DNA of 64,000 bases from Calditrichota bacterium. Lineage in GTDB: Bacteria > Calditrichota > Calditrichia > Calditrichales > Calditrichaceae. Position 1 is the stretch's first letter, and the number at the start of each line of letters is the position of its first letter. Location of the stretch: the NCBI GenBank assembly GCA_024278755.1, contig JAJRSO010000038.1, positions 62,001 through 126,000 of the forward strand, in the 5' to 3' direction. The notes under the pieces are model-generated. The model ran no database searches. It worked only from the letters and a program-made list of their open reading frames with translations, and was not told the origin of the DNA. A program made the position numbers and the translations under genes. Positions 5,937-61,099 of this stretch are shown here, one piece after another.

Positions 5937-5944
5937 TCCGGGTA

Positions 5945-7651: not shown

Positions 7652-7660
7652 ATAAAACGA

Positions 7661-8137: not shown

Positions 8138-8255
8138 AAACAACTCCTTTAAATTGGTTAAACTGTTATTACAATAATAGCAATGGCCAATATTCGGATG
8201 AGTATTCGTAAACTTGAGAAAGGAGTGTTTTCTGTTTGGAAAAAGTATTAAAATA

Positions 8256-8975: not shown

Positions 8976-9021
8976 TATTCCTCTTATTTATTCATTAAAC
9001 AGATTCGTGCATTTGGCCGTT

Positions 9022-10074: not shown

Positions 10075-10094
10075 AATAATATCTCTAATTTATA

Positions 10095-10159
10095 ATTTTG
10101 AATGTTGGATTTTGAATGTTAAATAAAAAAACAATACAATTGTTTTCCATTCAAAATCT
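10095..10159. repeat. short AT-rich direct and inverted repeats between hypD and hypE
   Basis: The 12-mer ATTTTGAATGTT occurs twice, at 10095-10106 and 10109-10120. The arm GGATTTTGAATG (10107-10118) pairs with CATTCAAAATCT at 10148-10159 across a 29-base loop. The spacer contains no gene. It could form a weak hairpin between hypD and hypE, or be a dispersed intergenic repeat; only one copy is in this window. Confidence 0.45.
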
Positions 10160-10171
10160 AAAATTTATAAT

Positions 10172-11263: not shown

Positions 11264-11308
11264 ATTTAATTACCAATTACCAATTTTATTTATACATCCT
11301 ATTGCGGT

Positions 11309-11602
11309 CTATTTCTTGTCATCTTTTCGTTTTTCGGATAAAGGTTCATTTTCAATGGTATAGCCATCGGATTTTAACTGATCCGTAACCTCATCCCAAG
11401 CTTCAAAGGATTTCTGCGCTTCCTCTTCATTTAGCAGGGAAATGGCAAAGCCGGCATGTACAATCACATACTGACCGGTTTCCGCTTCCGGCACATAGGC
11501 CAGGCAAACGCTGTTCAGGGTTCCGTTGTAATCAATATGACCCATTAACAGGCCGTTCTCTTCGTATGTTTTAACAATCTTTCCTGGAATAGCCAGACAC
11601 AT
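11309..11602 (-). CDS. hypC: hydrogenase maturation chaperone HypC
   Basis: A 97-residue chaperone that binds the hydrogenase large subunit and delivers the Fe(CN)2CO unit with HypD. The family begins Met-Cys-Leu-Ala-Ile-Pro-Gly, and Cys2 must become N-terminal to work. The correct start is therefore the ATG at 11602, not the GTG two codons upstream. A GGAG ribosome site five bases before the ATG agrees. The protein is slightly long for HypC, with a charged, lysine-rich C-terminal extension of about 15 residues. It lies between hypF (208 bp upstream) and hypD. Confidence 0.96.
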   Translation of the reverse strand: MCLAIPGKIVKTYEENGLLMGHIDYNGTLNSVCLAYVPEAETGQYVIVHAGFAISLLNEEEAQKSFEAWDEVTDQLKSDGYTIENEPLSEKRKDDKK

Positions 11603-11809
11603 TTTCACTCCTTTTAGCGCGGTTTCTAATGGTAGTTAAAATACAGATACCGGAAATTAAATAAAAGAAAATTTTTATTTAATTCATACGCCGCCGTGGC
11701 AGTCCTTATGACCTTTGGGCGTTTTGCCCGGTTAACGTACTTTAAATAAAACACTGTGAATCTTTATGAATGGAGCCAAAAAGATATCGGATTTGGCTCT
11801 GCGTACCCA
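11603..11809. other. spacer between hypF and hypC
   Basis: A 207-bp gap in an otherwise tight operon. It holds a possible hairpin (GAGCCAAA at 11773-11780 pairing with TTTGGCTC at 11792-11799) just after the hypF stop, without a clear T-run. A small hairpin, GGGC-gtttt-GCCC, lies near 11728. On the minus strand a very short open stretch would end in HKDCHGGV, too short to call a gene. A promoter for hypCDE may lie here but I cannot identify one. Confidence 0.35.
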
Positions 11810-14170: not shown

Positions 14171-14173
14171 AAG

Positions 14174-14986
14174 TCACGCAGTATTTTTCTTTGAATTTTG
14201 CTCTCTCAACCAGGCAAACCATGCATCCATGCCATCGCCTTTAGTGGCGGACACTTCAAAAAACTGTAAAGCGGGATTGACCTGACGCGCATAGGTTTTA
14301 CATTGTTCGATGTTAAAATCCACATAGGGCGTTAAATCGATTTTATTGATGATGCAAATATCGGAGACGCTGAACATCGTTGGATATTTAATGGGCTTGT
14401 CGTCGCCTTCGGTAACGCTGATAATGACCACCTTGTTTGATTCGCCCAAATCAAACAGGGCGGGGCAGACCAGGTTGCCCACATTTTCGATAAAAAGAAG
14501 CGAGTCCTGTTTGGGGGTAAGCTCCGTTACGGCGCGCGCGATCATCGAAGAATCCAAATGGCAGCCGTTGCCCGTGTTTACCTGCAAAACCGGCGCTCCT
14601 GCGGCGTCAATGCGCTCGGCGTCCTGCATGGTCTGCTGGTCGCCTTCAATGATGGAAATGGAAAATTCATTTTTTAAAGCGTGAATTGTTTTTTCCAGCA
14701 AAGTGGTTTTACCGGAACCGGGGGAACTAACGAGATTAAGTACGGTAATGTTTTTAGCCATAAAATAACCCCGGTTACGTTCGGCCAGCAGATTGTTTTT
14801 ACCGAGCACGTCCTGCTCAACAGCGAAAGTACGGCTGTGTTCATGTGGGTGATCGTGTGTATGGCCGTGGCCGTGATCATGCTCGTGCGTATGGCCGTGA
14901 TCGTGAAGGTGGCTATGACCGCTTTCGCCCGGTTTGGAAAAAGTGACGGCTTCGTCGGGTTGTCCGCATCCGCAGGTATCGCACAT
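14174..14986 (-). CDS. hypB: nickel-inserting GTPase HypB
   Basis: A 270-residue GTPase that hands nickel to the hydrogenase with HypA. The N-terminus begins MCDTCGCG, the high-affinity nickel CXXCGC motif. A histidine-rich stretch (about 23-50, alternating His with Gly, Asp and Glu) that can store nickel follows. The G domain has a P-loop (SSPGSGKTTLLEKT), a switch region around EGDQQT, and NKIDLTPY for guanine recognition. Downstream residues include the metal-binding Cys-His of NGCHLDS. It sits between hypA (15 bp gap) and hypF. Confidence 0.97.
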   Translation of the reverse strand: MCDTCGCGQPDEAVTFSKPGESGHSHLHDHGHTHEHDHGHGHTHDHPHEHSRTFAVEQDVLGKNNLLAERNRGYFMAKNITVLNLVSSPGSGKTTLLEKTIHALKNEFSISIIEGDQQTMQDAERIDAAGAPVLQVNTGNGCHLDSSMIARAVTELTPKQDSLLFIENVGNLVCPALFDLGESNKVVIISVTEGDDKPIKYPTMFSVSDICIINKIDLTPYVDFNIEQCKTYARQVNPALQFFEVSATKGDGMDAWFAWLREQNSKKNTA

Positions 14987-40140: not shown

Positions 40141-40545
40141 ATGTCTTCAGTTTTAGCGCGCAAAGCATTTTTAAAACAGATAGGGCAGATATTCCTTGGC
40201 GGAATTATTATCCTAATGAGTCGTTTATTCGGTGACTTTTTATTACGTTTTCTTAAAACAGAACGTTTTGTGAAAATAGATAGCAAAAAGTTTATAGATG
40301 CGCAGCTTACGACAGAGGATTTTTTTGCCGAAAAAACCGCCGCGGGCGTACGCGTATTTTCCCGCAAGTGCCCCCACCTGGGCTGCACGCTACAAAAAGA
40401 TGAATCCCGTAAAAAGATTGTCTGTCCCTGCCATGGCAGTACGTTCTCAATTGAAGGAAAATACGAAAGCGGTCCGGCCCGCCGAAATATGTTTCTCCTG
40501 CCGGTAAAACAAACGGGAAAAGGAAAACTGATAATTAAACTCTAA
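40141..40545 (+). CDS. Rieske [2Fe-2S] protein of a bc-type complex
   Basis: A 134-residue protein with an N-terminal membrane helix (about 14-30) after a basic start, as in bc-complex Rieske proteins. The cluster motifs are Cys77-x-His79 in KCPHLGC and Cys95-x-x-His98 in CPCHGS, with disulfide cysteines 82 and 97. The GSTFSIEGKY segment is typical. It would accept an electron from quinol at the Qo site. The next gene, 7 bp later, encodes cytochrome b. No cytochrome c1 is present; two multihaem cytochromes follow instead. Confidence 0.93.
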   Translation: MSSVLARKAFLKQIGQIFLGGIIILMSRLFGDFLLRFLKTERFVKIDSKKFIDAQLTTEDFFAEKTAAGVRVFSRKCPHLGCTLQKDESRKKIVCPCHGSTFSIEGKYESGPARRNMFLLPVKQTGKGKLIIKL

Positions 40546-40552
40546 AGACAGA

Positions 40553-41452
40553 ATGAGAATAGAGACAGAGAAAATATTTGCCAAACGAATATGGCTGCCC
40601 GGCTGGGGCGAAATAGCGCTGAGCGCTTTACAGTTGGCGTTGATTTCTGGTATGATGCTGATTCCTTTTTTTTTACCGGGGACAGAGGCATTTAAAACCG
40701 TTAGCCTTTTAAATGGTTCCGGGTTTATTGGACGCTGGCTGCATGGCTTTCATTCCTACAGCGGAGATATCTTTATATTTGCCTCTCTCATTCATACTTT
40801 AGAATATCTTCTTAAAAAAAGTTACCGTGAATATCATTTAAAATCCTGGGCGTTGCTCATTGTGCTGGCTGTTATGGCGCTTTTAGCGGTTTTCAGCGGT
40901 TTTCTCAGTATCGGCAGTAAAGAGAGTTTTGCCGCCTTACATATCTTTTCCGGTATTTTGGAATTGCCGGGAAAAACTGGGAAGGCGCTCTCTCTTTTTA
41001 TCCTGGGCAATGCCGGGGCAAATACACCTTCGGCCTCTGTTTATTTCCATCATATTGCTACGTTTACGGTGTTAACAATTGTTTTAACCTATATGCATAT
41101 CAAACGGCTAAAGGCAGAAAGCTATGCTTTTTACTACACTTTTGTCCTTCTACTGGCAATAAGCCTGTTTTTTCCGGCCCATATAGGACAAGCGCTGTCT
41201 TCTCCGGCGCAAGTTTTAAAAGGCCCCTGGTATTTTATCGGTTTGCAGGAACTGTTATCCTGGATGCCGGTTTGGCTTGGCGGATGGCTTTTACCAATAT
41301 TGGTACTAATCTTGCTAGCCCTGTTGCCGTATCTGCGCAAATACGACTGGGTGATTCTTTACATTCTTACCGTAATTTTTCTGTTTTACCTTGCAGAAGG
41401 TGCAATCGGATGGTTTTTGAGAGGAGCGGGATGGCAACTGCTATTGAGGTAA
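40553..41452 (+). CDS. cytochrome b of a bc-type quinol oxidase
   Basis: A 299-residue membrane protein with about seven or eight helices. Haem ligands are visible as His67-x13-His81 in helix B (GFHSYSGDIF, SLIHTLEY) and His167-x14-His182 in helix D (YFHHIATF, YMHIKRL). The x14 spacing in helix D is that of b6-type proteins. The second half has KGPWYFIGLQELL where the Qo-site PEWY motif normally lies; the Glu is absent and the Pro is shifted. The C-terminal helices suggest a fused b6/subunit IV-like protein, short for a full cytochrome b. It should oxidise quinol with the Rieske protein. Confidence 0.9.
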   Translation: MRIETEKIFAKRIWLPGWGEIALSALQLALISGMMLIPFFLPGTEAFKTVSLLNGSGFIGRWLHGFHSYSGDIFIFASLIHTLEYLLKKSYREYHLKSWALLIVLAVMALLAVFSGFLSIGSKESFAALHIFSGILELPGKTGKALSLFILGNAGANTPSASVYFHHIATFTVLTIVLTYMHIKRLKAESYAFYYTFVLLLAISLFFPAHIGQALSSPAQVLKGPWYFIGLQELLSWMPVWLGGWLLPILVLILLALLPYLRKYDWVILYILTVIFLFYLAEGAIGWFLRGAGWQLLLR

Positions 41453-43221
41453 AATGGCAAAATATCCTGCTGTTTCTGGCGCTTATCTTTATGCTTCTGC
41501 TAAGCATTTTTATATTTCAGCCAAAAACAAAATCCATTGCTGACTTTAGAAAAAACGCAGATCAGTGTAGAACTTGTCATACGAATGTGGCGGATATGAG
41601 TGCTTCACATCCCGTAAAAACAATGGGCTGTGCGGCCTGTCATCTGGGGAATCCCTTTTCCGCCGATAAAGAAAATGCACATGCCGGGATGGTGCGCAAT
41701 CCGTCGGATCTGCTCTGGGCGGATAAAACTTGCGGAAAAACTGAATGTCACCCTGCTTTGGTTAAGGATGTTCGTAAATCCATTATGACCGATAATTCCG
41801 GTTTGGTGAGCGCAACCTTGTTTCAGTGGCGGGAGAGCGCAACACTAAACGATTCACTTGTACAGATACATTCCATTCCGGACACTTCTCTGGCCACCGA
41901 TCATCTCCGTAAGCTGTGTGCCGGCTGTCATATCAATAAAACCGAAAATGATTTTGCCGGTGAAATTGGGAAGCGGGGCGGCGGTTGTAACGATTGTCAT
42001 CTGGTTGGCAATACTACCGGCACACATCCTGCTTTTACCGTACAAATAGGCATCGAAGTTTGCGAAAAATGTCATAACCGCTCCAACCGAACAGCTCTTA
42101 ATTATCAGGGAAAATTTGAATCGGAAGGATATGGCACCCCATACGGAGGAGGCGCTTTTAGTGAAGATACGCTTTCCGGAGGGCGCTTCTTTTATCATAT
42201 CCCGGCCGATATACATTTTAGGGCCGGCATGGTCTGTATCGATTGTCATACGGCAGAAGAGGTTATGGGAGACGGAAAACGGCATGCACATCTCGAAGAT
42301 CAAATACAGGTGCGTTGCAGGGATTGCCATCAGGCTAGTTTTAAAAAACCCGACTCCGCAGATATCTCATGGAAAGTAATAGCGGTTAATACCATGCTTT
42401 CGGTACCGGATGATTCGCTGCTGGCCGTCACTTCCGGCGGCAGTTTTTTAAATAATGTCCGGCGCGAAAACGGACGGGTCGTACTCATTAAAAAAACAGA
42501 CGGTGAGCGTCGTGTTATAAAACAGATGGAAAAAAATAAAAACTGTACCCTATCCGGACACGAACGGCTTAGTTGCCAGGCCTGCCATACTGCGTATACG
42601 CCACAGTGTTACGGTTGCCATGATGTGTATGACCCTTCGCGCAAACAAATGGATAAAATTTCCTTTGAGGAAACGGAAGGTCACTGGCAGGAATTTCGCT
42701 CGTATCTGCGTTTTGAACGGCCTGCATTAGGCGTCGATCCGTTTAACCGTATCGTTCCTATGGCGCCGGGCTGTCAGGTGTATTTAACCGAACTGGACAA
42801 ACAAAAGCAGGTAAAAAAACAGGCCTTCTGGCCAACCATGGCCGGGTTCGATCCGCATAGCACCCGCCGTGAAACACCAACCTGTATGGAATGCCACAGC
42901 GATCCCAAAAGGCTGGGTCTGGGCGAAGGAAATTTGACACTTAAGGAGGGAAACCTGCATTTTACTCCCACCTATGCAGCAACCGCAGCCGGATTGGGCG
43001 GATTTGCTCTGGAACAGATGATTCATGTAAACGGAGAACCGTTTCAACAGATGTCGCGAACGGGAGAACGTCCGTTTAACGGAACCGAAATACGCAAAAT
43101 TTATGCTATGCGTTATTGTCTGGTTTGCCATGAAAAAGCCACGGACAAAATATATAACAGATTTTCGGAAAGCCTTAAACGTTTTCGCAGCGATCAGGAG
43201 ATAATATGCCAAGGGAAATAA
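41431..43221 (+). CDS. membrane-anchored multihaem cytochrome c, 12 haem sites
   Basis: A 596-residue protein. The ATG at 41431 is chosen because AGAGGAG ends four bases before it and it gives an N-terminal helix (ILLFLALIFMLLLSIFIF, about 11-28); an upstream frame inside cytochrome b has no such signal. Eleven CxxCH motifs and one CX4CH motif (CGKTECH, near residue 100) are visible, so up to twelve covalent haems. Clusters CRTCH/CAACH and CAGCH/CNDCH/CEKCH come first, CQACH and CYGCH in the middle, and CMECH and CLVCH near the end. The helix keeps it at the periplasmic membrane face, in the place of cytochrome c1. It overlaps its neighbours by 22 and 16 bp. Confidence 0.9.
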   Translation: MATAIEVKWQNILLFLALIFMLLLSIFIFQPKTKSIADFRKNADQCRTCHTNVADMSASHPVKTMGCAACHLGNPFSADKENAHAGMVRNPSDLLWADKTCGKTECHPALVKDVRKSIMTDNSGLVSATLFQWRESATLNDSLVQIHSIPDTSLATDHLRKLCAGCHINKTENDFAGEIGKRGGGCNDCHLVGNTTGTHPAFTVQIGIEVCEKCHNRSNRTALNYQGKFESEGYGTPYGGGAFSEDTLSGGRFFYHIPADIHFRAGMVCIDCHTAEEVMGDGKRHAHLEDQIQVRCRDCHQASFKKPDSADISWKVIAVNTMLSVPDDSLLAVTSGGSFLNNVRRENGRVVLIKKTDGERRVIKQMEKNKNCTLSGHERLSCQACHTAYTPQCYGCHDVYDPSRKQMDKISFEETEGHWQEFRSYLRFERPALGVDPFNRIVPMAPGCQVYLTELDKQKQVKKQAFWPTMAGFDPHSTRRETPTCMECHSDPKRLGLGEGNLTLKEGNLHFTPTYAATAAGLGGFALEQMIHVNGEPFQQMSRTGERPFNGTEIRKIYAMRYCLVCHEKATDKIYNRFSESLKRFRSDQEIICQGK

Positions 43222-44849
43222 AACATTTATCTCTATTGAATTGTGTTTTAGCGGGATTTTTTTTTATTGTTGTTAATTCTGTTTGGCTTTTTGCTTCAGA
43301 AAATTGCCAAGCTTGTCATAAGGAGATGCAGTCTTCCTGCAAACTGACCTGTGAGGAGTGTCATATTTCGTCGACTGCGCCGGGGCAAATTCAGCCGGCC
43401 GATCATCCCAAAGTCATTGCCAATCCTTCTAAAGAAGCCTATTGGCAGGAGAAATGCGCTCCTTGCCATGCCAAAGAAATAGAAAAATTTAAAAATAGTT
43501 TACACTATTCCTTAGCCGGCATTATTGGGCAAACCCGTTTTTTATGGGGTAAAACAAACAGTCCGCTTGACGAAAATCCGACAGAAAGCCGGAGGGAGTT
43601 GTTACAGTTAAAAACAAATGCGGCACATTCCACAGCGGAATTAGCGGACGCTCTGTTGGCCCAAAAATGCCTTTCCTGCCATTTTGAAGCGGAAGGACGC
43701 ACGCAGGCTAAAGGGCGTAAGCGTGCCGCTGGCTGTGCATCCTGCCACATTCCGCTGGATCAAAAATCGGGTAAGCCGTTGTTTGGGCACAAGATGCAGC
43801 AAAAAGTGTCCGATGCAACCTGTATGACCTGTCATTCCGGTAATCGCGTTGGTGCCGACTATTACGGTTATTTTGAACACGACTATCATAAGGCATATCA
43901 GACGCCATACGGAGCAGAGGCGCAGTTTGCTTCGTTTCAGCACCGGATGGTTCCTGATGTGCATCAACTGGCGGGCTTGCAATGTATGGATTGCCATTCC
44001 CGACCGGATGTAATGGGAGGAATTACAGCGTCCGCTTTTGAAGGACAGAACAGGGATACCCGCAAGTGCACGCAGTGTCACGGAGGGTTTGATCACATAG
44101 TACAAAGAATAGAATTGAAAAACTCGGTTCCTCAATTCGATAAAACCGTTATTGCTCATAAAGAGTTCCATCACAAGGTAAGCTGTGCTGCCTGTCATGC
44201 CGGATGGAGTTACCAGGATTATGGCTTACATCTCTTTTTTGACCAGAGTAATCATTATGATCAATGGGGCGATTTTATCTGGCAGGACGATGCGGAAATT
44301 ACTCATCTGCTGCAAGAACAACTGAACCGGCCGCCGGGATCCCGCCAAAACGCGCATACCCGCAATAAGCTCAGCGGAAAAGCCATGGCCGGCGCCTGGT
44401 ACAAGGGATGGACCTTTCGCCGCTGGGAGGGTATTGTGTTAGGTAAAGGCGAAAAAGGGCTTTATGTGCCTATTCGTCCTTTATATCAATATTATGTGAC
44501 GTATGTGGATTCGCTAGACAATGTCTGGCTGGATTCACAGATTCCGCTACGAAAGGATGGTAAACCCGGTTGGAACTGGGATACTTACGCGCCCCATACG
44601 ATTCAGGCTGGCGGACGAGCCTGCGAAAACTGTCACGGAAACACATTAGCTGCAGGATTAGGCATCCGATCTTCGTTAAAAGACTCGGTTGCAAATGCCA
44701 TTACATTGCCATCGGCGCCGATATTACCGTTAACCCGGTTATTAAATTCGCATGAGCGAAAAAAACTACTCTATCCCTCTGCCCGATATAAAAAATGGCG
44801 GATCAAAGCCATGAAAAAAAATGGCTTGTTAAAACTATTGCATAATTGA
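43206..44849 (+). CDS. multihaem cytochrome c, 10 haem sites
   Basis: A 547-residue exported protein with an N-terminal hydrophobic segment (about 10-29), probably a signal or anchor. Ten CxxCH motifs are visible (CQACH, CEECH, CAPCH, CLSCH, CASCH, CMTCH, CMDCH, CTQCH, CAACH, CENCH). Nine lie in the first two thirds and one near residue 490. The gap of about 150 residues between the ninth and tenth (WTFRRWEGIVLGKGEKG and following) may be a catalytic or docking domain. A CAGGAG ribosome site precedes the ATG, which overlaps the 12-haem gene by 16 bp. It is likely to receive electrons from the bc-type complex; the partner oxidant is unknown. Confidence 0.9.
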   Translation: MPREIKHLSLLNCVLAGFFFIVVNSVWLFASENCQACHKEMQSSCKLTCEECHISSTAPGQIQPADHPKVIANPSKEAYWQEKCAPCHAKEIEKFKNSLHYSLAGIIGQTRFLWGKTNSPLDENPTESRRELLQLKTNAAHSTAELADALLAQKCLSCHFEAEGRTQAKGRKRAAGCASCHIPLDQKSGKPLFGHKMQQKVSDATCMTCHSGNRVGADYYGYFEHDYHKAYQTPYGAEAQFASFQHRMVPDVHQLAGLQCMDCHSRPDVMGGITASAFEGQNRDTRKCTQCHGGFDHIVQRIELKNSVPQFDKTVIAHKEFHHKVSCAACHAGWSYQDYGLHLFFDQSNHYDQWGDFIWQDDAEITHLLQEQLNRPPGSRQNAHTRNKLSGKAMAGAWYKGWTFRRWEGIVLGKGEKGLYVPIRPLYQYYVTYVDSLDNVWLDSQIPLRKDGKPGWNWDTYAPHTIQAGGRACENCHGNTLAAGLGIRSSLKDSVANAITLPSAPILPLTRLLNSHERKKLLYPSARYKKWRIKAMKKNGLLKLLHN

Positions 44850-44874
44850 CTGTTTATTGAGTAAGATAATAGAT

Positions 44875-46599
44875 ATGAAAAAGAGTCGAATTCGAACGAT
44901 AATACCCGATAGCGCCCGTTCCATCGTCGCAATTTTTGTGGCGCTTGCCGTTTTGATGATTGCCAGCGCAGTGGTGGAATTATCCCAAAGTAAAAAAGAA
45001 ATCTTGCATATTATGGAAGAGCAGGCCCATTCGTTGCTGGAATCGATACTGGTTGCTTCACATAATACGCTGCAAACAACCCAGTACCTCGATGAACTGG
45101 CCAGAGAAAAGATTTTAAATTTCAAAGCACACGATCCGCGTTTTCTGGAATTTAAAAAAAAGATTGGGTTTGGCGTTCTGCTGCGAAATGCCGTATCACA
45201 AAATCCACGTATTATTTTTGCTGCCCTGCAGGATACCAGTAATATTTTAGCGGCGTCCGGCAATGTGTCCGTTTTACAGTCTATCTTATCCTCCCCGTTT
45301 CTGGCAAAGGCTTTAAACGATTCGCTTTTTCGCACTCGAATTACGGAATTTGATTCCACCGAAATATTTGAAGCAGTTCACCCATTTGTTTTTAACGGCC
45401 AAAAAATCGGTTTAATGCGCCTTGGTCTCTCTTTGGCTCCGGTACAAACCGTTAACAGCCGGATATACAGACGTCTGATAATCATAACAATTGTTCTGAC
45501 CCTAATTGGGTTTATTATTTTTATTTTCCTGTTTACGCGTCAGCGCTATTTTCTGTTAAAAAAACAGTATTCCATCGTAGAAACGTATTCGGGAAACATT
45601 ATCGGAAATGTAAGCGATGGTATTATTGTAATGGATAAAACGGCGGGCATCAAAATTTTTAATACAGCCGCCGAGCAGCTTTTTGGAAAGACTGCCGGCG
45701 AAGTACAGGGCCAAACGGCGGATATCCTGTTTGAACAGGACATCTGTCTGCAACTACTTCACTCCGACAACGCCCTTACGCCGTTAGACTGTAAAATAGA
45801 TGGCCAGAAAAAATATTTATTGGTATCCAGAAGCCGATTTACCGATGAGGACGGTATTGAAAATGAGATTCTGGTGATTCGCGATTTAACCCAGGAAAAA
45901 TTGCTTGAAGAACAAATGGAACGAAAACAACGGCTCACAGCCATGGGTGAACTGGCATCGGGAGTGGCCCATGAAATCCGTAATCCGCTTAACACCATAA
46001 GCACCATTATTCAGCAGCTAAATAAAGATTTTGAACCGGTTAACGAAGCCGAAGAATACCATCAATTGGCCGGCCTTGTCTATAACGAAGTGAACCGTAT
46101 CAATCACACCATTCAGGATTTCCTGCGTTTCTCCCGACCGGAACCGGTACAAGCTTCGGCGTTTAATTTGTCTGCCTTTCTAAAAGAATTAAAAATACAA
46201 TTCGACTCCACCCTATCGGAACAACAGGTCGTGCTTAAAATTACAGAGAACTGGAATGGAGATGTGTTTTGGGATCCCAGGCAAATGCGACAGGTCTTTA
46301 TCAACTTAATTCAAAATGCTCTTCAGGCAGTACCGGAAAAAACAGGCGAGATTCATATTTCGGTTAATAAACTTCCCGACGAGGAATTGGAAATTACAGT
46401 AAAAGACAATGGAACGGGCATAAAAAAAGAAATTCTTGCCAATATTTTTAATCTGTATTTTACCACAAAAGCCAAAGGTACCGGAATCGGGCTGAGCATT
46501 GTGCAGCGTATTGTGTATGAACATCAAGGATTTATCTCGGCTGAAAGTGAACCGGGCGCCGGCGCAGAATTTTACCTAAAACTTCCCATTAAGATCTAA
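44875..46599 (+). CDS. NtrB-like membrane histidine kinase with PAS domain
   Basis: A 574-residue sensor kinase. TM1 is at about 13-34 and TM2 at about 203-225, with a periplasmic sensor of about 165 residues between them. A PAS domain (about 235-350, GNVSDGIIVMDKTAGIKIFN) and an NtrB-type H-box (GELASGVAHEIRNPLNTI, His366) follow. An N-box (NLIQNALQAV), G1 (KDNGTGIKKE) and G2 (GTGIGLSIV) complete the kinase. A TTG six codons upstream is an alternative start; the ATG is preferred, although neither has a strong ribosome site. The NtrC-type regulator at 52958-54334 is its likely partner. Confidence 0.9.
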   Translation: MKKSRIRTIIPDSARSIVAIFVALAVLMIASAVVELSQSKKEILHIMEEQAHSLLESILVASHNTLQTTQYLDELAREKILNFKAHDPRFLEFKKKIGFGVLLRNAVSQNPRIIFAALQDTSNILAASGNVSVLQSILSSPFLAKALNDSLFRTRITEFDSTEIFEAVHPFVFNGQKIGLMRLGLSLAPVQTVNSRIYRRLIIITIVLTLIGFIIFIFLFTRQRYFLLKKQYSIVETYSGNIIGNVSDGIIVMDKTAGIKIFNTAAEQLFGKTAGEVQGQTADILFEQDICLQLLHSDNALTPLDCKIDGQKKYLLVSRSRFTDEDGIENEILVIRDLTQEKLLEEQMERKQRLTAMGELASGVAHEIRNPLNTISTIIQQLNKDFEPVNEAEEYHQLAGLVYNEVNRINHTIQDFLRFSRPEPVQASAFNLSAFLKELKIQFDSTLSEQQVVLKITENWNGDVFWDPRQMRQVFINLIQNALQAVPEKTGEIHISVNKLPDEELEITVKDNGTGIKKEILANIFNLYFTTKAKGTGIGLSIVQRIVYEHQGFISAESEPGAGAEFYLKLPIKI

Positions 46600-47868: not shown

Positions 47869-47902
47869 AGAATACATGATAAAATTTATAAAGGAGAAAA
47901 AA

Positions 47903-48358
47903 ATGAAAATGTTTACAGGACTTTTAATCCTTGCTCTTTTAGTTGTTACAGGAAATGCCTTTGCCCAGGATTCGCTGCAGATTCAGCAAAAAAAGCAAAT
48001 GCGAATTAAGATGAATAAAAAAATGCAGGGCCAGGGAAGGCATGGTATGGGTTTTGTGGATGCAGACGGAGACGGTTACAATGACAACGCCCCCGATGCA
48101 GACGGTGACGGAATACCCAATGGAATGGACCCGGATTATACGGGCGGGAAAATGCATAACGGCCGTGGCGGCATGGGTTTTGTGGATGCGGACGGTGATG
48201 GAATTAATGACAATGCAATGGATGCGGACGGCGATGGAATTCCCAATGGAATGGATCCGGATTTTGTACGCCCCCGGAACGGGAGTGGAAAAAATATGGG
48301 AAAAGGACAAGGCGCCGGCCATAATGGCGGACATAAAAGGGGTGGAAAAAACAAATAA
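47903..48358 (+). CDS. small secreted thrombospondin type-3 repeat (calcium-binding) protein
   Basis: A 151-residue exported protein with a signal peptide (FTGLLILALLVVTGNAFA). The body has two near-identical blocks, each GxGMGFVDADGDGxxDN then DADGDGIPNGMDPD, giving four DxDxDGxxD calcium loops of the type-3 kind. Around them lie Lys-, Met- and Gly-rich basic segments (KKQMRIKMNKKMQGQG; a C-terminus rich in Gly, His and Lys). It may bind calcium or other metal ions in the periplasm or outside. The ATG at 47903 follows AAAGGAG and lies downstream of the sigma-54 start. The blocks are also near-repeats in DNA. Confidence 0.8.
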   Translation: MKMFTGLLILALLVVTGNAFAQDSLQIQQKKQMRIKMNKKMQGQGRHGMGFVDADGDGYNDNAPDADGDGIPNGMDPDYTGGKMHNGRGGMGFVDADGDGINDNAMDADGDGIPNGMDPDFVRPRNGSGKNMGKGQGAGHNGGHKRGGKNK

Positions 48359-52957: not shown

Positions 52958-54334
52958 ATGTCAGATTTCAGAATCCTCTTAATTGACGATGAGCCGGCGC
53001 AAATTCTCTCCATCCAGTCTTTTTTAAAGCGTCGGAACTATCAGGTTGTTTCGGCCAACTCCGGTACGGAAGGGCTGGCTTTATTAAAAAAGGGAGATGT
53101 CCATTTGGTGTTTACCGATTTTCGTATGCCCGATATGAACGGTCTGCAGGTGGTACAGGAAATTGCGAAGATAAATCCGGAAATTCCCGTGGTTGTTCTG
53201 ACAGCTTACAGCGACTCGGAAGACGCGGTTCAGGTGATGAAAGAAGGGGCCTTCGATTATTTATCCAAACCGATTGATTTGGATGAACTGGAACTGCTGG
53301 TTCAAAAGGCAAAAGAACGCAATTATCTGATTTCAGAAAACAAATTGTTGCGCACCCAACTGGAAGATCGTTATAAATTTGACGCCGTTATCTCGCAAAG
53401 CGGAGAGATGGAAGAAGTCCTGAATACGGCGGGCCGGGCGGCTAAAAGTAAAGCAACGGTTTTGATTCGCGGCGAAAGCGGAACCGGAAAAGAACTGATT
53501 GCCAAAGCGGTACATTTTGCCAGTTCCCGCAAAGACAAGCCGATGATTACCGTTAACTGTGCGGCGTTAACCGAAACCCTGCTGGAAAGCGAGTTATTTG
53601 GCCACGAAAAGGGATCCTTTACCGGAGCCTCAGCCATGCGTATCGGTCGGTTTGAACAGGCAAACGGCGGGACGCTGTTTATTGATGAAATCGGCGACAT
53701 ACCCCTGCAAACACAGGTCAAACTGTTGCGGGCTTTGCAATTCGGCGAATTTCAGCGTGTGGGCGGTACCGAGACCATTAAAGTGGATGTGCGTATTCTC
53801 ACCGCCACTAATCGGAATCTCGAAGATATGATTCAGCAGGGGAGTTTTAGGGAAGATTTATTTTATCGGATCAATGTGGTTGCCATTCATATCCCGCCGC
53901 TACGAGAACGTAAAACGGATATCCCCTTACTGATTGCCCATTTTATTAATAAATATGCTTCGGAAAATGAGAAGGAGATAAGCGGAATCAGCAGAGAGGC
54001 TCAGGATTACCTGATGCGCTACCGTTTTCCCGGTAACATTCGTGAACTGGAAAACATCATCGAACGGGCGGTTGTGATGAGCCGTGATACGCTTATAACA
54101 ACAAGCGACCTGCCTGTCGGTTTATCCGTAACACACGAATCGATAATACTTGATCCCGCCGATTTTTCCCATTCGTTTACGGAAAAAGTAGCCGCGTTCG
54201 AAACAGCTATGATTGAAGAGGCGCTGGAAATAAAAAAAGGCAATCAAAGTCAGGCCGCCAAGATGATGGGGATTTCGGAACGGCATCTGCGTTCCCGAAT
54301 GCAAAAGTTAGGTATTGTAAACACACAGCGTTAA
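52958..54334 (+). CDS. NtrC-family sigma-54-activating response regulator
   Basis: A 458-residue regulator with all three domains. The receiver (1-120) has phosphoacceptor Asp54 (TDFRMPDMNG). The AAA+ domain (about 140-370) has Walker A GESGTGKE near 172, Walker B Asp243/Glu244 (LFIDEIGD), and the sigma-54 contact loop GSFTGA (219-224), a Ser variant of GAFTGA. A Fis-type helix-turn-helix closes it (QSQAAKMMGISERHLRSRM). It should bind the palindromes at 46610 and 51632 and activate the -24/-12 promoters. It lies 24 bp after the barrel gene and overlaps the convergent flavoprotein gene by 4 bp. Confidence 0.93.
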   Translation: MSDFRILLIDDEPAQILSIQSFLKRRNYQVVSANSGTEGLALLKKGDVHLVFTDFRMPDMNGLQVVQEIAKINPEIPVVVLTAYSDSEDAVQVMKEGAFDYLSKPIDLDELELLVQKAKERNYLISENKLLRTQLEDRYKFDAVISQSGEMEEVLNTAGRAAKSKATVLIRGESGTGKELIAKAVHFASSRKDKPMITVNCAALTETLLESELFGHEKGSFTGASAMRIGRFEQANGGTLFIDEIGDIPLQTQVKLLRALQFGEFQRVGGTETIKVDVRILTATNRNLEDMIQQGSFREDLFYRINVVAIHIPPLRERKTDIPLLIAHFINKYASENEKEISGISREAQDYLMRYRFPGNIRELENIIERAVVMSRDTLITTSDLPVGLSVTHESIILDPADFSHSFTEKVAAFETAMIEEALEIKKGNQSQAAKMMGISERHLRSRMQKLGIVNTQR

Positions 54335-55632
54335 TCCGAAGGCGAACCGAATTGAATCCCAATTTTCTTTAACAGAGCAAAAGGCGCTTCTCCTCCGGCA
54401 AAGATAAAGGTGTAATTATTGGGCATGGTAATCACGCTTTCACCATCTTTAAGCACTACGGTTGTCTCTGTTATTTCCAGAAGATTCGAATTAAAACGAA
54501 CATTGACAGCGCCGGACTGAATCAATTGATTTATGCGTTCTTCATTACGTTTTTTTAAACGAAAGAATTTCTCTTTTCGATACGAAAGTGTGACCGTTGT
54601 ACCTGTTTGACCGGACAGCCCAATTGCGGCTTCCACGGCGCTATCACCTCCACCCACCACAAGAAGATGGTTTCCGCGATACCCTTCGGCATCAAGTAGT
54701 TTATACATTACCTTGGGGAGTTGTTCTCCTTTTATACCCAGTTTCCGCGGAGTTCCGCGTCTGCCTAGGGCCAGGATAACCTGCATAGCCAGATACGTGC
54801 GGCCAGTTGTTTCTATTGTGAAGATATCGTTATTTTTCGAAATATCTTTTAACTTTTCTTTTGAGTTAATCGGCAGTTTATTACGCGTTAAAATTGTATT
54901 CCAGATATTCAAAAGCTCTTCTTTGCTATATTCCGTTTTCGTAAGTTTGCCATATAATGGAATTTCCACGGGTTCGGTAAGCACCATTTTCTTTTTTGGG
55001 TACTGTAAAATTGTCCCCCCGGCCTCTTGTTGATCAAATGCCGCAAAGGAAAGTCCTTGTTTTTTTGCTTCTGCCGCAGCGCTTAATCCGGCAGGTCCGG
55101 AACCCACAATTACGAGGTCGTAAACCTCCGCTTTTGTACTGCGTTTTCCGTTTTTGACAATATGGCCGGTAACCTGTCTGCCCTGGTTGATGGCATTTTT
55201 TATTAAAGCCAAACCACCCAGCTCGCCAATAATATATATTCCGGAAATATTGCTTTCGTAATCTTTGTTAATTAGCGGGATGTCGTCTCGTTTGGAAATA
55301 TCTCCCAAACCGATGGTGATTCCTTCAACCGGGCAAGCTTCGGCACATTTTCCATGACCAACGCAGCGCGCGCCGTTAATAATTACTGCCTTTCCCGAAA
55401 CAATAGCCAGCACGCCTCCTTCGGGACAGGCGGCAACGCAGGTTCCGCAGCCAATACAAGCAAACAGATCGATCACGGGGTGTTGCACAATAGGTTTATC
55501 AAAACCGAGACGGCGGGCCTCATCACGTTGCTCCTGCGCAGCTTTACTATTTTTACGATATTTAAAAAAAGCCGGTAAAATAATCAGCAACATAAAAACC
55601 GCAGTGGTAATCCAGATTATAAGTGATTCCAT
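54331..55632 (-). CDS. membrane-anchored FAD/NAD(P) oxidoreductase with two ferredoxin motifs
   Basis: A 433-residue protein. One N-terminal helix (about 4-24) anchors it. A ferredoxin domain follows: CIGCGTCVAACP (Cys59, 62, 65, 69) and CVGHGKCAEACP, in which the second cysteine is His93 (Cys90, His93, Cys96, Cys100). Residues 150-430 form a thioredoxin-reductase-like flavoprotein with VIVGSGPAGLSAAA (FAD) and LVVGGGDSAVEAA (NAD(P)), without the redox CxxC. It could move electrons between NAD(P)H and membrane carriers in the cytoplasm. It is the last gene of the 54331-61099 unit, 6 bp after the barrel gene. Confidence 0.88.
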   Translation of the reverse strand: MESLIIWITTAVFMLLIILPAFFKYRKNSKAAQEQRDEARRLGFDKPIVQHPVIDLFACIGCGTCVAACPEGGVLAIVSGKAVIINGARCVGHGKCAEACPVEGITIGLGDISKRDDIPLINKDYESNISGIYIIGELGGLALIKNAINQGRQVTGHIVKNGKRSTKAEVYDLVIVGSGPAGLSAAAEAKKQGLSFAAFDQQEAGGTILQYPKKKMVLTEPVEIPLYGKLTKTEYSKEELLNIWNTILTRNKLPINSKEKLKDISKNNDIFTIETTGRTYLAMQVILALGRRGTPRKLGIKGEQLPKVMYKLLDAEGYRGNHLLVVGGGDSAVEAAIGLSGQTGTTVTLSYRKEKFFRLKKRNEERINQLIQSGAVNVRFNSNLLEITETTVVLKDGESVITMPNNYTFIFAGGEAPFALLKKIGIQFGSPSD

Positions 55633-55638
55633 AATGCC

Positions 55639-57297
55639 TCAGAAATAGTATCCGATATCTGTAAAAATACGATGTCCCAAAATCGTATCGCCCCAATCAT
55701 ATTGGTAGTATCCGCCAATATAAAACCGCAAGGGCAGTGTTACTCGTGTGTTGAGTCGTAGCCATTGATTGGCAAAGGCGGTTTGAGTGGTCTTTAATGT
55801 ATAAAGATACGCGCCGTAAGTAATATCTATGGAATGGCCCTGTTTAAAACGAAATCCCAGGCGGGCCGAAGGGTTTATTCCCGATATAAAAAAAGAATCA
55901 AAACCGTTTATGCGCCCGAAAACATACATATGCTTAAGCAGAAAGTTTTGTTTTCGAAGCGTACTGCCGTATGCATAAGTCATTTTATTTTCATTGGCTT
56001 TTTTGCGGATTCCTATATAGGCGCTTAGCCGATAGTCTTGCAAAAAATGTATTTGGATGTTGCCGCGCAACCCCTGACGCTGGGCATCGTCAAACAGACT
56101 ATCTGCCATGCCGCGTGTTTCGTAAGTGTAATAGTTTTTCCGGTTATCATAATTTATGCCTGCCGAAAGCCACGGTGAAACTATATAATGTCCGCTGAGA
56201 TATAATCCGGTAACATTAACGGTTTTCGGTATTCGTTGCCGTCGCCAGTTTCGGTTAATATCAATTTCCAGCGACTGATAAATATTCCATTTATTACGTT
56301 TGTTGTATGTTAAACGCTGAAACAGAAACTCGCGACTGACGGTGCGTTTATGATATACGGCGGCGGCATACAGATTGATTTCTATCCGTTGAGAATTATT
56401 GTTTGCCTGGCGGAAACGGACAAAAGAACCATATTTTTGATAAGATGTCTGGAAATCGGAATACTGCCACTGGGGCTGAGTGCCTGCAAAAATGCCCCAA
56501 TGCCATTTGGAATTAATCCGCTGACCCATTAAAAAACCATCCATGTATCCGATTCCGCTGAAACCGGAAGAAATGATTCGTCCCATTTTTGCATAAACTA
56601 TTGCTTTAGGGTTATCATAGGTTAGAGAAGCTTCGTATAGGCGATTCTGGCGGCGAAGATCCGGCAAGCTACGCCCCTTTGCATTATAGAGTGAACGGAA
56701 ACGAAGGCGGAAACGCATATGCGGACTAAAAAGATTTTTTGCCAGTATTTTAAAATGAAACGACGGCAGATTTTGATCATTGTCGGAATTGGACCCGTCG
56801 ATAAAACGGTATCCTTGTAGCGCGGCATAGCCACTGATGCGAACCGGCACAGATACGGAAACAGATTCTTTGGTTTTAACCGGTCGCTTTCTGCTGATAC
56901 GAGTGAAAGCTTCCGGCGTTTGTGTGTTTGACCGTTGAGTAAGTAAAACAACTTTATACCCGGATAGCATCGGCTTGGTTTGCGATATAATTTTGCAGGA
57001 AGAAGAATGAGAGGCGGTGTAAACGGCTTCGATTAAGCCAATAGATTTACCATCTTTTATAACTTTTAGGCTATCCTGTTTACGAATACCCTCCGCCTGA
57101 CCGGCGGAAATATAGATATATTCCGCCGAAACATATTTAACCGTGATTGTTTGCGTTTCGGCCAAAAGAGGAGCGGCAAGTCCCGTAAATATCAAAACAA
57201 TGCCCATTACCATTTTTAGCAGGATGCTTCGTATGAGCGCTGCAAATAACAGAACATATGTAAATCCAAAGGGAACGGGCGAATGGGATTTAATCAT
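55639..57297 (-). CDS. outer-membrane beta-barrel next to multihaem cytochromes
   Basis: A protein of about 550 residues. The ATG at 57297 overlaps the 16-haem gene by 8 bp. An ATG at 57213 would give a neater signal peptide (MVMGIVLIFTGLAAPLLA); no ribosome site decides between them. After export, a small beta domain (EGIRKQDSLKVIKDGKSIG, VVLLTQRS) precedes a long barrel of alternating strands with aromatic residues and a C-terminal GYYF. No family is recognised. The position between multihaem cytochromes and the electron-input flavoprotein suggests a porin that holds cytochromes in the outer membrane, by analogy with MtrB-like proteins; homology to them is not shown. Confidence 0.75.
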   Translation of the reverse strand: MIKSHSPVPFGFTYVLLFAALIRSILLKMVMGIVLIFTGLAAPLLAETQTITVKYVSAEYIYISAGQAEGIRKQDSLKVIKDGKSIGLIEAVYTASHSSSCKIISQTKPMLSGYKVVLLTQRSNTQTPEAFTRISRKRPVKTKESVSVSVPVRISGYAALQGYRFIDGSNSDNDQNLPSFHFKILAKNLFSPHMRFRLRFRSLYNAKGRSLPDLRRQNRLYEASLTYDNPKAIVYAKMGRIISSGFSGIGYMDGFLMGQRINSKWHWGIFAGTQPQWQYSDFQTSYQKYGSFVRFRQANNNSQRIEINLYAAAVYHKRTVSREFLFQRLTYNKRNKWNIYQSLEIDINRNWRRQRIPKTVNVTGLYLSGHYIVSPWLSAGINYDNRKNYYTYETRGMADSLFDDAQRQGLRGNIQIHFLQDYRLSAYIGIRKKANENKMTYAYGSTLRKQNFLLKHMYVFGRINGFDSFFISGINPSARLGFRFKQGHSIDITYGAYLYTLKTTQTAFANQWLRLNTRVTLPLRFYIGGYYQYDWGDTILGHRIFTDIGYYF

Positions 57298-58543
57298 CTT
57301 CTTTTCCATTGGGATGACAGGAATAACAGGAAGCGCTGTCGTAAGAATATCCATTGACTTCTTTGTGCTTATCATCCATTTTACTCTGTCGGTGTTCGTG
57401 ACAGGTGATGCATTCAAAGGTGCTGTAATCGGAAGAAATCACATGGCAGTCAGCGCAGGTATTCCATTCCCCTTTATGTTTTCCGGAATAGATGGGAAAA
57501 TATAATCCGTCATGGTCAAAATCAGCCGGTTGCCAGCGCGAGGTTGTATGACAGTCGGCGCAGGTTCTTGGAAAAGAGGCGGCCTGATGTGAAGGATCGC
57601 TTGTATTATTATAATCCGCTTCGTGACAGGAAATACAATCCGAGGGGATATTGGAATATCCGGATGTGTGGCAATCCTGACAATCGGCAGATTTATGTGC
57701 GCCTGTCAACGGGAAATTGGTAAGGTTGTGATCAAAATCAGCCGGGGTCCATCGGTCTTCGGAATGACAGGCCTGACAGTCGGTAGAAAAACTTGCAGCC
57801 CGATGGTCCGGCGATTGTGCCCGGTTGTAATCGGTTTCGTGGCAACTAAAGCAGGCAATTTCCAGCGGGGTATTCAAATTACCTCCGTGGCAATCGGAGC
57901 AATCGAGCAAAGCATGGGCGCCTCGTAACGGAAAACGGATACTGTGTTCCCAAACAGCGCCCTTCCAGCTTGCGGCATCGGCAAGATGGCAGTTTTCACA
58001 GTTTAAGCTAAAACCGGTACTCTGATGAGCGGGATTCAGGGTTTGCATATAATTGGTTAAATGGCAGCTTTTACACTCCGTGGAGGTATTGACAAAGGTT
58101 CGTTGCTGTTCCGACTGATGGCAGGCCTGGCAATCGAGAAGCGCATGTATACCGGTAAGCGGAAACGAGGACTGCGCGTGTAGTTCAAACATTTCCAATC
58201 TGTTTTCCCAGTTTTGAGTCGTGTGGCATCTCTCGCACCGGAAGCCCAGTTCTCCCTTATGGATATCCGTATGGCAATCTGTACAGGCGGTGCCGATACG
58301 ATTAAATACAAGACTTTCGTGGCAGCTTTGGCACTGCGCGGAAAAATGCCCGCCTGTAAGCGTAAAGCCTACATTGTCATGGTTAAAGGTCATCTTTTTA
58401 GCAGATACGCTCCAGTCCTGCGAAGAATGACACATTTCACACTCCATGTCAAAATCCTCGCCATGAGGCATATCTTCCTGTTGAGATGTCTCTCCCCGGG
58501 AAAATGCAGTGACCAAAAGGAGCAGAGTAATAATTTTAACCAT
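57290..58543 (-). CDS. multihaem cytochrome c, 16 haem sites
   Basis: A 417-residue exported cytochrome with a signal peptide (KIITLLLLVTAFSRG). Sixteen CxxCH motifs are visible, about one per 26 residues. Many are preceded by a module of an aromatic-rich FDHxxxxFPLxGAHxxxxC pattern, for example FDHNLTNFPLTGAH before CQDCH and SIRFPLRGAH before CSDCH; the histidines could be distal haem ligands. The string-like layout suits a wire of haems. The gene overlaps the upstream 20-haem gene by 8 bp and is followed by an overlapping barrel gene. Confidence 0.92.
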   Translation of the reverse strand: MVKIITLLLLVTAFSRGETSQQEDMPHGEDFDMECEMCHSSQDWSVSAKKMTFNHDNVGFTLTGGHFSAQCQSCHESLVFNRIGTACTDCHTDIHKGELGFRCERCHTTQNWENRLEMFELHAQSSFPLTGIHALLDCQACHQSEQQRTFVNTSTECKSCHLTNYMQTLNPAHQSTGFSLNCENCHLADAASWKGAVWEHSIRFPLRGAHALLDCSDCHGGNLNTPLEIACFSCHETDYNRAQSPDHRAASFSTDCQACHSEDRWTPADFDHNLTNFPLTGAHKSADCQDCHTSGYSNIPSDCISCHEADYNNTSDPSHQAASFPRTCADCHTTSRWQPADFDHDGLYFPIYSGKHKGEWNTCADCHVISSDYSTFECITCHEHRQSKMDDKHKEVNGYSYDSASCYSCHPNGKEDD

Positions 58544-60212
58544 TCTTGATACCGTTGCTTTTTATGTTTCCATGACATGATTTACAAGTGGCTTTAAGAG
58601 GTTTATAACGCACAATCGAGCGTTTATCTTCCCGAATGGTTTTATGGCAGGAGGCACAGGGTACATATTGATGAGCGCCGCTAAGTTTAAAGGTTGCATC
58701 CCGGTTGTGATCAAATTTTTCAGCCAGCCAGTCGGTGGGCGTATGGCAGCGATCGCACCGAGTTACTTTTTCGTTAACCCGTTTAAACTGTCCGTTATGA
58801 ATGTCATCATGGCAGGAGGCGCAATTGTTTGTTGCCTTATTGAAATCGGTTTTATCCGTTCCTTTCCCGGAATGACAACGAATACATTTTATCGTTTTAT
58901 GACGCCCTTCAAGCGGAAACGACGTACGGTTGTGATCAAATGAAACAGAAGACCAGTTTTCTACCGAATGGCAATGTTGACACCCGTCAGAATTTGTTTC
59001 TTTAGAGACGATTGTGAGATATTTTTCCACCTGTTTTTTGTGCGGATTCGGATGGCAGGAAACGCAGCGCTCGTATTTTAAATGAAATTGAAACGTGGTT
59101 TTTGCCGATTTTTTTTGTTTTTGCCGGTGGCATTCGAAACAGGGAACGGCAAGATGTGCGCCTTTAAGAGGAAAACGGGTTTCGGAGTGCAGGACGGTAG
59201 TAAAAAGGGAGGGTGAAAAACCGTTTTCGGTATGGCATTCTTCACAGGCACCTTTTTGACTACGCATTTTAAAAGCCCCCTGATGCACATCCTTATGACA
59301 ATCGGAACATAAATTGTAGCGGGTTATTTTTAAAGGTTTGCCCGGAAGGTGGCAAGCTTTACAGCGTAGTATTAAATGCATTCCTTTAAGCGGGAAGTTG
59401 GTGCGGTTATGATCAAATTTGGTTTTAATCTGTTGCCAGCTTTTGGGTGAATGACAGGATGTACAATTTCCCCCCAGCGTTCCGTTATGCACATCATCAT
59501 GGCAAGAAGTACAATTAGTAAAGGTTAGACCATTAAATTTTAAGTATGTTTTTTCGGTTGTATTTTTTTTATCGATTACCGTGTGATGACATTTTACACA
59601 ATCCGTTTGTTTGTGTTTTCCGAGAAGGGGAAAATCTGTCTTGGAATGGTTAAAACCCGGAGCCGGTTTCCAGCTTTCCATGGTGTGGCAGGAGAGACAA
59701 TTTGTATCGAGCTGGCCGCGGTGTTCATCCACATGACAGTTTAAACAGTCGGATGACAGACCCAAAAACGTTTTATCAGGGTCTTTGTTTGCATCCGTTA
59801 ATGGTTTCAGCTTATGGATAAACTCTTTTTTATGACAGTCTCGGCATTTAAGTGTTTTATGTTTACCTTTAAGCAAATAACCCGTTTGGGCATGATCAAA
59901 TTTCTCAATGCCTTCTTTCCAGTAAATTAAGTCGAAATCCCGGCCATGATGTTCAACATGGCAATCGGCGCACAGGCGAAATTCGGTATTGGAGTGGAGA
60001 CCCCGTTTCTCTGTAATTTCTTCTTTTAATAATTTATGGCATCTAAGGCACTTTTCGGGAGAGAGTTTTTTCCCGCTTTCATGGCATTGCGTACAATTCT
60101 CGATACCTTCCAAATCTTTATGTGCTCGATGCAGATCTCCGGGAGAGAGCTGAGCCTTTCCCGGGCCCGGAAATAGCAGCAGAACACTAAAACAAAATAA
60201 AAAAAATCTCAT
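58536..60212 (-). CDS. multihaem cytochrome c, 20 haem sites
   Basis: A 558-residue exported cytochrome with a signal peptide (MRFFLFCFSVLLLFPG). The ATG at 60212 has AAGGA five bases upstream and is preferred to the in-frame ATG seven codons earlier. Twenty CxxCH motifs are visible. The same module as in the 16-haem protein recurs, for example FDHNRTNFPLKGMH before CKACH and FDHNRTSFPLEGRH before CIRCH. It follows the cytochrome b gene by 8 bp. It would take electrons from that membrane protein toward the outer membrane. Confidence 0.92.
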   Translation of the reverse strand: MRFFLFCFSVLLLFPGPGKAQLSPGDLHRAHKDLEGIENCTQCHESGKKLSPEKCLRCHKLLKEEITEKRGLHSNTEFRLCADCHVEHHGRDFDLIYWKEGIEKFDHAQTGYLLKGKHKTLKCRDCHKKEFIHKLKPLTDANKDPDKTFLGLSSDCLNCHVDEHRGQLDTNCLSCHTMESWKPAPGFNHSKTDFPLLGKHKQTDCVKCHHTVIDKKNTTEKTYLKFNGLTFTNCTSCHDDVHNGTLGGNCTSCHSPKSWQQIKTKFDHNRTNFPLKGMHLILRCKACHLPGKPLKITRYNLCSDCHKDVHQGAFKMRSQKGACEECHTENGFSPSLFTTVLHSETRFPLKGAHLAVPCFECHRQKQKKSAKTTFQFHLKYERCVSCHPNPHKKQVEKYLTIVSKETNSDGCQHCHSVENWSSVSFDHNRTSFPLEGRHKTIKCIRCHSGKGTDKTDFNKATNNCASCHDDIHNGQFKRVNEKVTRCDRCHTPTDWLAEKFDHNRDATFKLSGAHQYVPCASCHKTIREDKRSIVRYKPLKATCKSCHGNIKSNGIKNG

Positions 60213-60220
60213 TTTTATCC

Positions 60221-61099
60221 TTAAAATATCCATGTGTAACCCAGCCAGACGGAAACGGAAATATGTACGAACATAATCACGTACATAATTATGGCAAACG
60301 GCTTATGAAATACATGCCAGTAATGAAATAAGCGGTGTATTTTAGTCCAGAGGGCGATTCGTCGTTCCAGTAAAAACCTTTGTTCGGCTGTAACGACGAT
60401 ATGATGAACCTCCTGTATCGGTATATGAAAGGTTTTTAGAAGAATCTGTTTTAACTTTCTCTGACGAAGTGGCCCGTACAAACCGGAAAAGAGAAGATTT
60501 AAAAAACTCCTTTCCGCAGAATCCGCCCCATATAAATTCTTTTTAATACGGATAGTATCCGCATCGGATAAACCAAATTCCTGTTGAAGCGTTTCCCGTA
60601 ATCGGGCAGCATCGCTTTCTGCTTCTTCCAGAGATAACTCCTTGCCATAAATGCTGCGGGGAATCTGGTTGTAGAGAAAGCGGCCCAAGATACCGCTCAG
60701 CGCAACGGCAATCATTGACCAGAAACTGACAGATACCAGACCGTTCAGCTTAAACGTGCTGTGCAAAATAATGAATAAGGGGCCGGCGATACCAAAAAAA
60801 ATATGAATTTTTAGCCAGTTACTTAATCGGCCTAAATGTTGAAATATTTCAATTCGTTTGCGGATGGAATAAAAGAGAAGACTGAGGAGCATCAAAGAAC
60901 CTAATATTCCCAATCCGTGGCTGCGATAGCCGCCGGGTTTTAAAAATTTGTAGGACGGGTGACGCACGCGCAGCGCTAACGGAGTAGAGTAATACTCATA
61001 TCCGTTCCATAAAAAATAGGCTAACGCAATAGCGGCCGATACGTATAAAATATAAAGAAAAAAATTGAAGAGGAGGCTTTTGTCCTGCTGTTTTGCCAT
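60221..61099 (-). CDS. cytochrome b-like membrane protein of a multihaem electron-transfer unit
   Basis: A 292-residue integral membrane protein with about five helices: about 9-30, 60-78, 97-117, 124-146 and 265-290. Paired histidines stand in helices: LKIHIFFGIAG with IILHSTF, HGLGILG, WHVFHKPFA and MFVHISV, consistent with b-type haems. It resembles cytochrome b561/ferric-reductase-like proteins, but I cannot name a family. A charged cytoplasmic region (about 150-245) splits the helices. It is the first gene of the minus-strand unit and would oxidise quinol and feed the 20-haem cytochrome; this is inference. Confidence 0.72.
   Translation of the reverse strand: MAKQQDKSLLFNFFLYILYVSAAIALAYFLWNGYEYYSTPLALRVRHPSYKFLKPGGYRSHGLGILGSLMLLSLLFYSIRKRIEIFQHLGRLSNWLKIHIFFGIAGPLFIILHSTFKLNGLVSVSFWSMIAVALSGILGRFLYNQIPRSIYGKELSLEEAESDAARLRETLQQEFGLSDADTIRIKKNLYGADSAERSFLNLLFSGLYGPLRQRKLKQILLKTFHIPIQEVHHIVVTAEQRFLLERRIALWTKIHRLFHYWHVFHKPFAIIMYVIMFVHISVSVWLGYTWIF

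Follow-up and report, generated by a model that had tools for sequence, protein, structure and literature searches.

The 64,000-nucleotide stretch of Calditrichota DNA analysed here (the window; contig JAJRSO010000038.1, positions 62,001 to 126,000) carries, at 40141-44849 on the + strand, a tight operon of four genes in the order Rieske protein, cytochrome b, 12-haem cytochrome c and 10-haem cytochrome c. This operon probably encodes a Rieske/cytochrome b-type menaquinol oxidase, similar to complex III, in which a dodecahaem cytochrome replaces cytochrome c1. The kind of system is already known from Geobacter, and the cytochrome b of the version in the window belongs to a separate, deep lineage.

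A four-gene Rieske/cytochrome b operon without cytochrome c1

The operon and its main motifs are as follows.

40141..40545, + strand: Rieske [2Fe-2S] protein of 134 aa with an N-terminal membrane anchor (PF00355, E 3.4e-11; motif comparison)
40553..41452, + strand: cytochrome b of 299 aa (PF00033, E 1e-7; ligand spacing, AlphaFold2 model, tree)
41222..41233, + strand: Qo (ef-loop) motif GPWY in place of PEWY, residues 224-227 of cytochrome b (alignment, motif survey)
41431..43221, + strand, start ATG at 41431: 12-haem cytochrome c with an N-terminal transmembrane anchor, a relative of ExtM and proposed c1 substitute (NF040943, haem-site conservation, anchor)
41731..41751, + strand: CX4CH, the third haem site of the 12-haem protein (aligned with a CXXCH of Geobacter ExtM; invariant)
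43206..44849, + strand: periplasmic 10-haem cytochrome c, paralogue of the 12-haem protein with an ExtN-like role (10 CXXCH, identity, NCBIfam)

A gap of 7 nt separates the Rieske and cytochrome b genes, while the cytochrome b and 12-haem genes overlap by 22 nt and the 12-haem and 10-haem genes by 16 nt, in agreement with an earlier, sequence-only reading in which the four genes were said to overlap or nearly touch. A chance or pseudogene origin of the operon was rejected on the basis of the CXXCH counts compared with shuffled proteins, the lack of stop codons and the conservation in several genera.

The cytochrome b chain consists of fused b6 and subunit IV parts with helices A-G only (seven helices) and no helix H. 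All four haem-b ligands are present, forming the pairs H67/H81 and H167/H182 with the canonical +14/+15 spacing. Its AlphaFold2 model (predicted local distance difference test score (pLDDT) 72, predicted template modelling score 0.76) matched bc1 cytochrome b with a Z of 22.7 and a root-mean-square deviation of 3.1 Å over 275 residues. In a tree of 62 cytochrome b sequences, built by a quick search and with long branches that make the deep order uncertain, the sequences from Calditrichaceae, SAR324-like genomes, the fused types described below and a Desulfobacterota-side metagenome-assembled genome (MAG; L202) fell on one side of a branch with a Shimodaira-Hasegawa-like approximate likelihood ratio test support of 99.9. 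This group, hereafter the window lineage, is apart from Geobacter ExtP, from the PEWY types and from the APWY b6/subunit IV types. Alignment showed that the haem c_n cysteine is absent from the window lineage and that its Qo motif is GPWY or GPWF, with an invariant change from E to P at the ef loop.

The sequence-only reading had pointed to GPWY instead of PEWY at the Qo site, which the alignment of cytochromes b bears out; as a sign of oddity, however, the motif did not hold up. A motif survey found APWY to be common in b6/subunit IV-type complexes of Nitrospinota, Planctomycetota, Chloroflexota, Desulfobacterota and others, and GPWY as a unique feature was rejected since APWY is widespread. 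Judged from the survey, GPWY belongs to a motif type, xPWY, that is widespread. The motif varies across the wider Rieske/cytochrome b class, and the absence of PEWY is thus not decisive for class. The Rieske protein has the motif CPHLGC...CPCHGSTF, in which the Ser is kept and the Tyr is replaced by Phe, and its PF00355 match is above the cut-off, like the PF00033 match of cytochrome b; the same two residues were found throughout the window lineage except in L202.

No c1 gene is present in the operon, as had been noted from the sequence, and the possibility of one elsewhere was checked in the organism's own genome (3.94 Mb, 96% complete), where PF02167 (cytochrome c1) gave no match over the cut-off (best 13.3 bits versus 22.8). 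The genome encodes four Rieske-domain proteins, one of them in a second Rieske/cytochrome b/9-haem operon, with PEWY, on contig C7. This second operon (L076, 3015-5831) lies inside a large multihaem island at 50-104 kb of contig C7 (L075-L077), in which genes for 19-, 17-, 13- and 11-haem proteins and near-duplicated cassettes were seen. Another genome, G005, holds four distinct Rieske/cytochrome b/multihaem operons (L091, L092, L094 and L083), whose multihaem parts are a 9-haem, an Hao-like 8-haem, a 780-aa 8-haem and the 12/10-haem type. The other operons of Calditrichaceae, namely the 9-haem type of contig C7 and an octahaem Hao-linked type like the Nap-linked genes reported for Caldithrix abyssi, likewise combine Rieske, cytochrome b and multihaem proteins, but differ from the window operon in having PEWY, a cytochrome b of 350-362 aa from another clade, and other multihaem families.

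The 12-haem protein as probable partner of cytochrome b

The relatives compared are mostly MAGs. In three phyla (Bacteroidota, Ignavibacteria and Calditrichota), cytochrome b and the 12-haem protein were found as one reading frame, about 905-938 aa long and with the Rieske gene directly upstream in the loci read. In Bacteroidota, the fusion occurs at L008 and L009 and in six of the 13 ExtM-bearing genomes among 395 sampled (one being L008's own); in Calditrichota, it was found in G017 and G018, two genomes of another family. With seven helices, cytochrome b has its C-terminus on the periplasmic side, which must then also hold the fused haem domain, in the place of c1. Since the two proteins form one polypeptide in these relatives, the 12-haem protein is the strongest candidate to stand in for c1. 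In the Ignavibacteria MAG, the fusion (L006, 7950-10651) is frameshifted in the haem part, reflecting either an assembly error or a pseudogene.

Cytochrome b of this type is present in 10 of the 15 genomes of the family, with nine relatives at 48-54% identity, and the order Rieske, cytochrome b, 12-haem, 10-haem is kept across Calditrichaceae wherever contigs allow reading. The same four genes, in this order, were found in L202. Together with the fusions, this conserved order supports the earlier proposal of a multihaem partner in place of c1, and the exact partner, then called unknown, can now be named as a relative of ExtM. In G001, a single contig of 4.98 Mb that is probably Caldithrix abyssi, the operon lies at 1.48 Mb (L081, 9512-14165), beside a sulfur island. 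The Caldithrix abyssi genome paper counted only a Nap-linked Rieske/cytochrome b pair (PMC5317091), and the operon appears to have been overlooked in this genome.

The 12-haem protein contains 11 CXXCH and one CX4CH, against an expectation of 0.05 CXXCH in shuffled proteins. The CX4CH aligns with the third CXXCH of Geobacter homologues that have 12 CXXCH, and all 12 sites are invariant among the 28 homologues compared; on this conservation, CX4CH is a real twelfth haem site. The protein matches NF040943, the NCBIfam model of ExtM, from end to end (E 4.5e-94, 315.9 bits), below the curated cut-off of 800, and shares 29-30% identity with Geobacter ExtM. Its N-terminal anchor looks uncleaved in Calditrichaceae. 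The 10-haem protein contains 10 CXXCH (shuffled-protein expectation, 0.04) and matches the ExtM, ExtN and ExtO models of NCBIfam. It is, to judge by its identity with the 12-haem protein over most of the length (~23% for the window pair, up to 26% in relatives), a paralogue of that protein. Pfam recognised class III/c7-type haem domains in both, and comparison of both sequences with solved structures gave weak or spurious matches only.

The 10-haem protein was not seen in the fused or SAR324-type loci. It is therefore accessory and dispensable, with the 12-haem subunit as the only constant partner, and the earlier suggestion that quinol oxidation drains into 22 haems finds no support in that form; 22 haems in one complex were not adopted.

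Similar clusters in metal reducers had been mentioned in the sequence-only reading, and Geobacter indeed has one. The extM, extN, extO and extP genes of Geobacter encode 12-haem, 10-haem, Rieske and cytochrome b proteins, respectively (PMC5877670), and the cluster (extM-Q, Cbc6) was proposed in 2010 to encode a conserved inner-membrane bc complex (PMC2825233). Like the window operon, this cluster (GSU2935-2931 region) groups the four genes without c1, and its 12-haem protein is homologous over the full length; a PhsA-like neighbour is found in one such genome (G409). It differs in its gene order, M-N-O-P-Q, and in its split b6 and subunit IV, whereas the window cytochrome b is a single chain. 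ExtP has the haem c_n cysteine (FCLGG) and ExtQ has SAWF at Qo, whereas the window protein has GPWY and no such cysteine. Moreover, ExtP lies across the 99.9-supported branch, and the window cytochrome b matches the NCBIfam ExtP model weakly (3e-16, 59.8 bits), short of the cut-off of 290. No ExtH, ExtI, ExtKL or ExtS gene was recognised next to the operon within the window; ExtI and ExtKL were not searched genome-wide. The ext clusters of Desulfobacterota were located through an ExtM search, the first matches of a Geobacter ExtP search in this phylum being other b6-type complexes and not ext clusters. At L203, L205-L207 and L209-L211, 12-haem/10-haem pairs with no Rieske or cytochrome b gene nearby were observed, two of them with a small MerR-type regulator upstream.

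Compared with cytochromes bc1 and b6f, the window complex shares the Rieske protein and a cytochrome b of bc1 fold with two b haems, but has a 12-haem subunit instead of c1 or f, GPWY at Qo and no helix H. A multihaem c protein also replaces cytochrome f in the Kuenenia complexes Kuste4569-4574 and Kustd1480-1485; these differ in having 6-8 haems, a split b6/subunit IV and NAD(P) oxidoreductase subunits, with no gene-for-gene homology (PMC12954380).

Proposed electron path and competing explanations

We propose that cytochrome b, with its GPWY ef loop, and the Rieske protein have a Qo site between them, where quinol, assumed to be menaquinol, would be oxidised. Of the two electrons, one would reach the Qi side via haems bL and bH. 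The other would leave the Rieske cluster for the ExtM-type 12-haem subunit tethered to the membrane, which may hand it to the 10-haem paralogue or to other periplasmic multihaem proteins and from there to an acceptor. This traffic may belong to the metabolism of sulfur compounds, by way of a Phs/Psr-like molybdoenzyme, NrfD, YedE transporters and rhodanese. If the proposal is right, at least five phyla have a Q-cycle enzyme that passes electrons from quinol directly to a dodecahaem wire.

Gene neighbourhoods suggest the sulfur-linked role. An island comprising, with varying completeness, a Phs/Psr-like molybdoenzyme, a ferredoxin, NrfD, paired YedE-type sulfur transporters and a rhodanese adjoins the operon in G001, G003 and G013 and the ExtM pair of G019, and lies near the SAR324-type and Bacteroidota forms. 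Molybdoenzyme neighbours were seen across four phyla, often with rhodanese and YedE genes. In Bacteroidota, nine of the 13 ExtM genes adjoin a molybdoenzyme gene (eight within the flanks examined, plus L008), and in G409 the Geobacter-like ext cluster is accompanied by a molybdoenzyme (45% identity) and a rhodanese. Among 40 Calditrichota genomes, ExtM and the island NrfD tend to occur together (15 with both, 1 and 5 with one only, 19 with neither; Fisher p 1.0e-5). The sulfur role becomes testable if the proposal is true, and the fusions offer single-gene targets for a test. A bolder version, which we consider less likely, sees here a second, independent solution to multihaem complex III. In this version, a deep lineage of cytochrome b that is dodecahaem-fused in several phyla would energetically couple the menaquinone pool to sulfur-compound conversion by the Phs/Psr-like molybdoenzyme, rhodanese and YedE, with the 12-haem unit as the junction or even the catalytic site.

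Several points weigh against the menaquinol oxidase interpretation and its sulfur link. We found no biochemistry on any member in the literature, and the glutamate of the Qo site is missing from the window cytochrome b. Pairs of 12- and 10-haem genes without local Rieske and cytochrome b genes occur in several Desulfobacterota and one Calditrichota genus, and the pair is therefore a module able to take other donors. In Geobacter, ExtM bears a lipoprotein signal; one paper lists it as extracellular and terms its genes a porin-cytochrome conduit, extIJKLM (PMC13194489). The sulfur island of the organism's own genome, including the rhodanese, is on a separate contig (C77) and not beside the operon. 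Finally, the test for co-occurrence of ExtM and the island NrfD ignores phylogeny.

It is possible, but we think doubtful, that the 12- and 10-haem proteins are instead a terminal reductase of polysulfide, tetrathionate, selenite or another oxyanion, fed by the Rieske/cytochrome b pair, the whole being a respiratory quinol:substrate reductase. With about 8 conserved non-motif His for its 12 haems, the 12-haem protein has fewer conserved distal His than haems, and some of the haems may have an open site, so that it may hold a catalytic haem; the sulfur-gene neighbours and the link of the Geobacter cluster to selenite and tellurite reduction through ExtI (PMC5877670) point the same way. However, neither CXXCK nor another known catalytic-haem signature was seen, and the ligands of the 12-haem protein could not be assigned, its AlphaFold2 model from 7 sequences (pLDDT 36) being too poor for that or for a fold search. 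The 10-haem protein, in which about nine distal His are conserved against ten haems, looks like a wire, and the selenite evidence concerns the porin rather than ExtM.

The lipoprotein signal, extracellular listing and porin-cytochrome naming of Geobacter ExtM would fit an outer-membrane electron conduit formed by ExtM and the 10-haem protein, with Rieske and cytochrome b merely co-transcribed. We regard this as improbable: the cytochrome b-ExtM polypeptides of three phyla link ExtM with the inner membrane, the 12-haem anchor of Calditrichaceae looks uncleaved, and no adjoining porin gene was recognised. The natural fusions also point to the inner membrane for the 12-haem protein of the Geobacter-type cluster.

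A degenerate Qo site that does not bifurcate electrons, leaving a plain quinol dehydrogenase or an enzyme in reverse operation, would agree with the lineage-invariant change from E to P and the Rieske Phe, but is similarly hard to credit, given that both b haems are kept here and that, across a broad range of Rieske/cytochrome b complexes in which no haem ligand is lacking, xPWY is the usual form. Because this whole class is without the glutamate, its loss does not by itself exclude bifurcation. A Kuenenia Rieske protein with Phe at the same position has a potential of +335 mV (PMC12954380), so Phe need not mean low potential and the potential cannot be read from this residue.

Neighbouring loci in the window

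Downstream of the operon lies one further gene that is possibly co-transcribed with it; we do not count it as a subunit.

44857..46599, + strand: PAS-histidine kinase, starting 7 nt downstream of the operon (TTG start) or ~25 nt downstream (ATG at 44875) (Pfam)

A small secreted protein with DADGDGIPNGMDPD calcium-binding-like repeats is encoded at 47876-48358. A second multihaem cluster occupies 54331-61099 on the - strand and encodes a 16-haem (57290-58543) and a 20-haem (58536-60233) cytochrome, a FeS/FAD oxidoreductase (54331-55632), a 292-aa multi-helix protein without a Pfam match (60221-61099) and a 592-aa open reading frame without a match. At the other end of the window (200-14986), reading of the translations indicated [NiFe] hydrogenase subunit genes (about 200-3562) and maturation genes (about 8256-14986).

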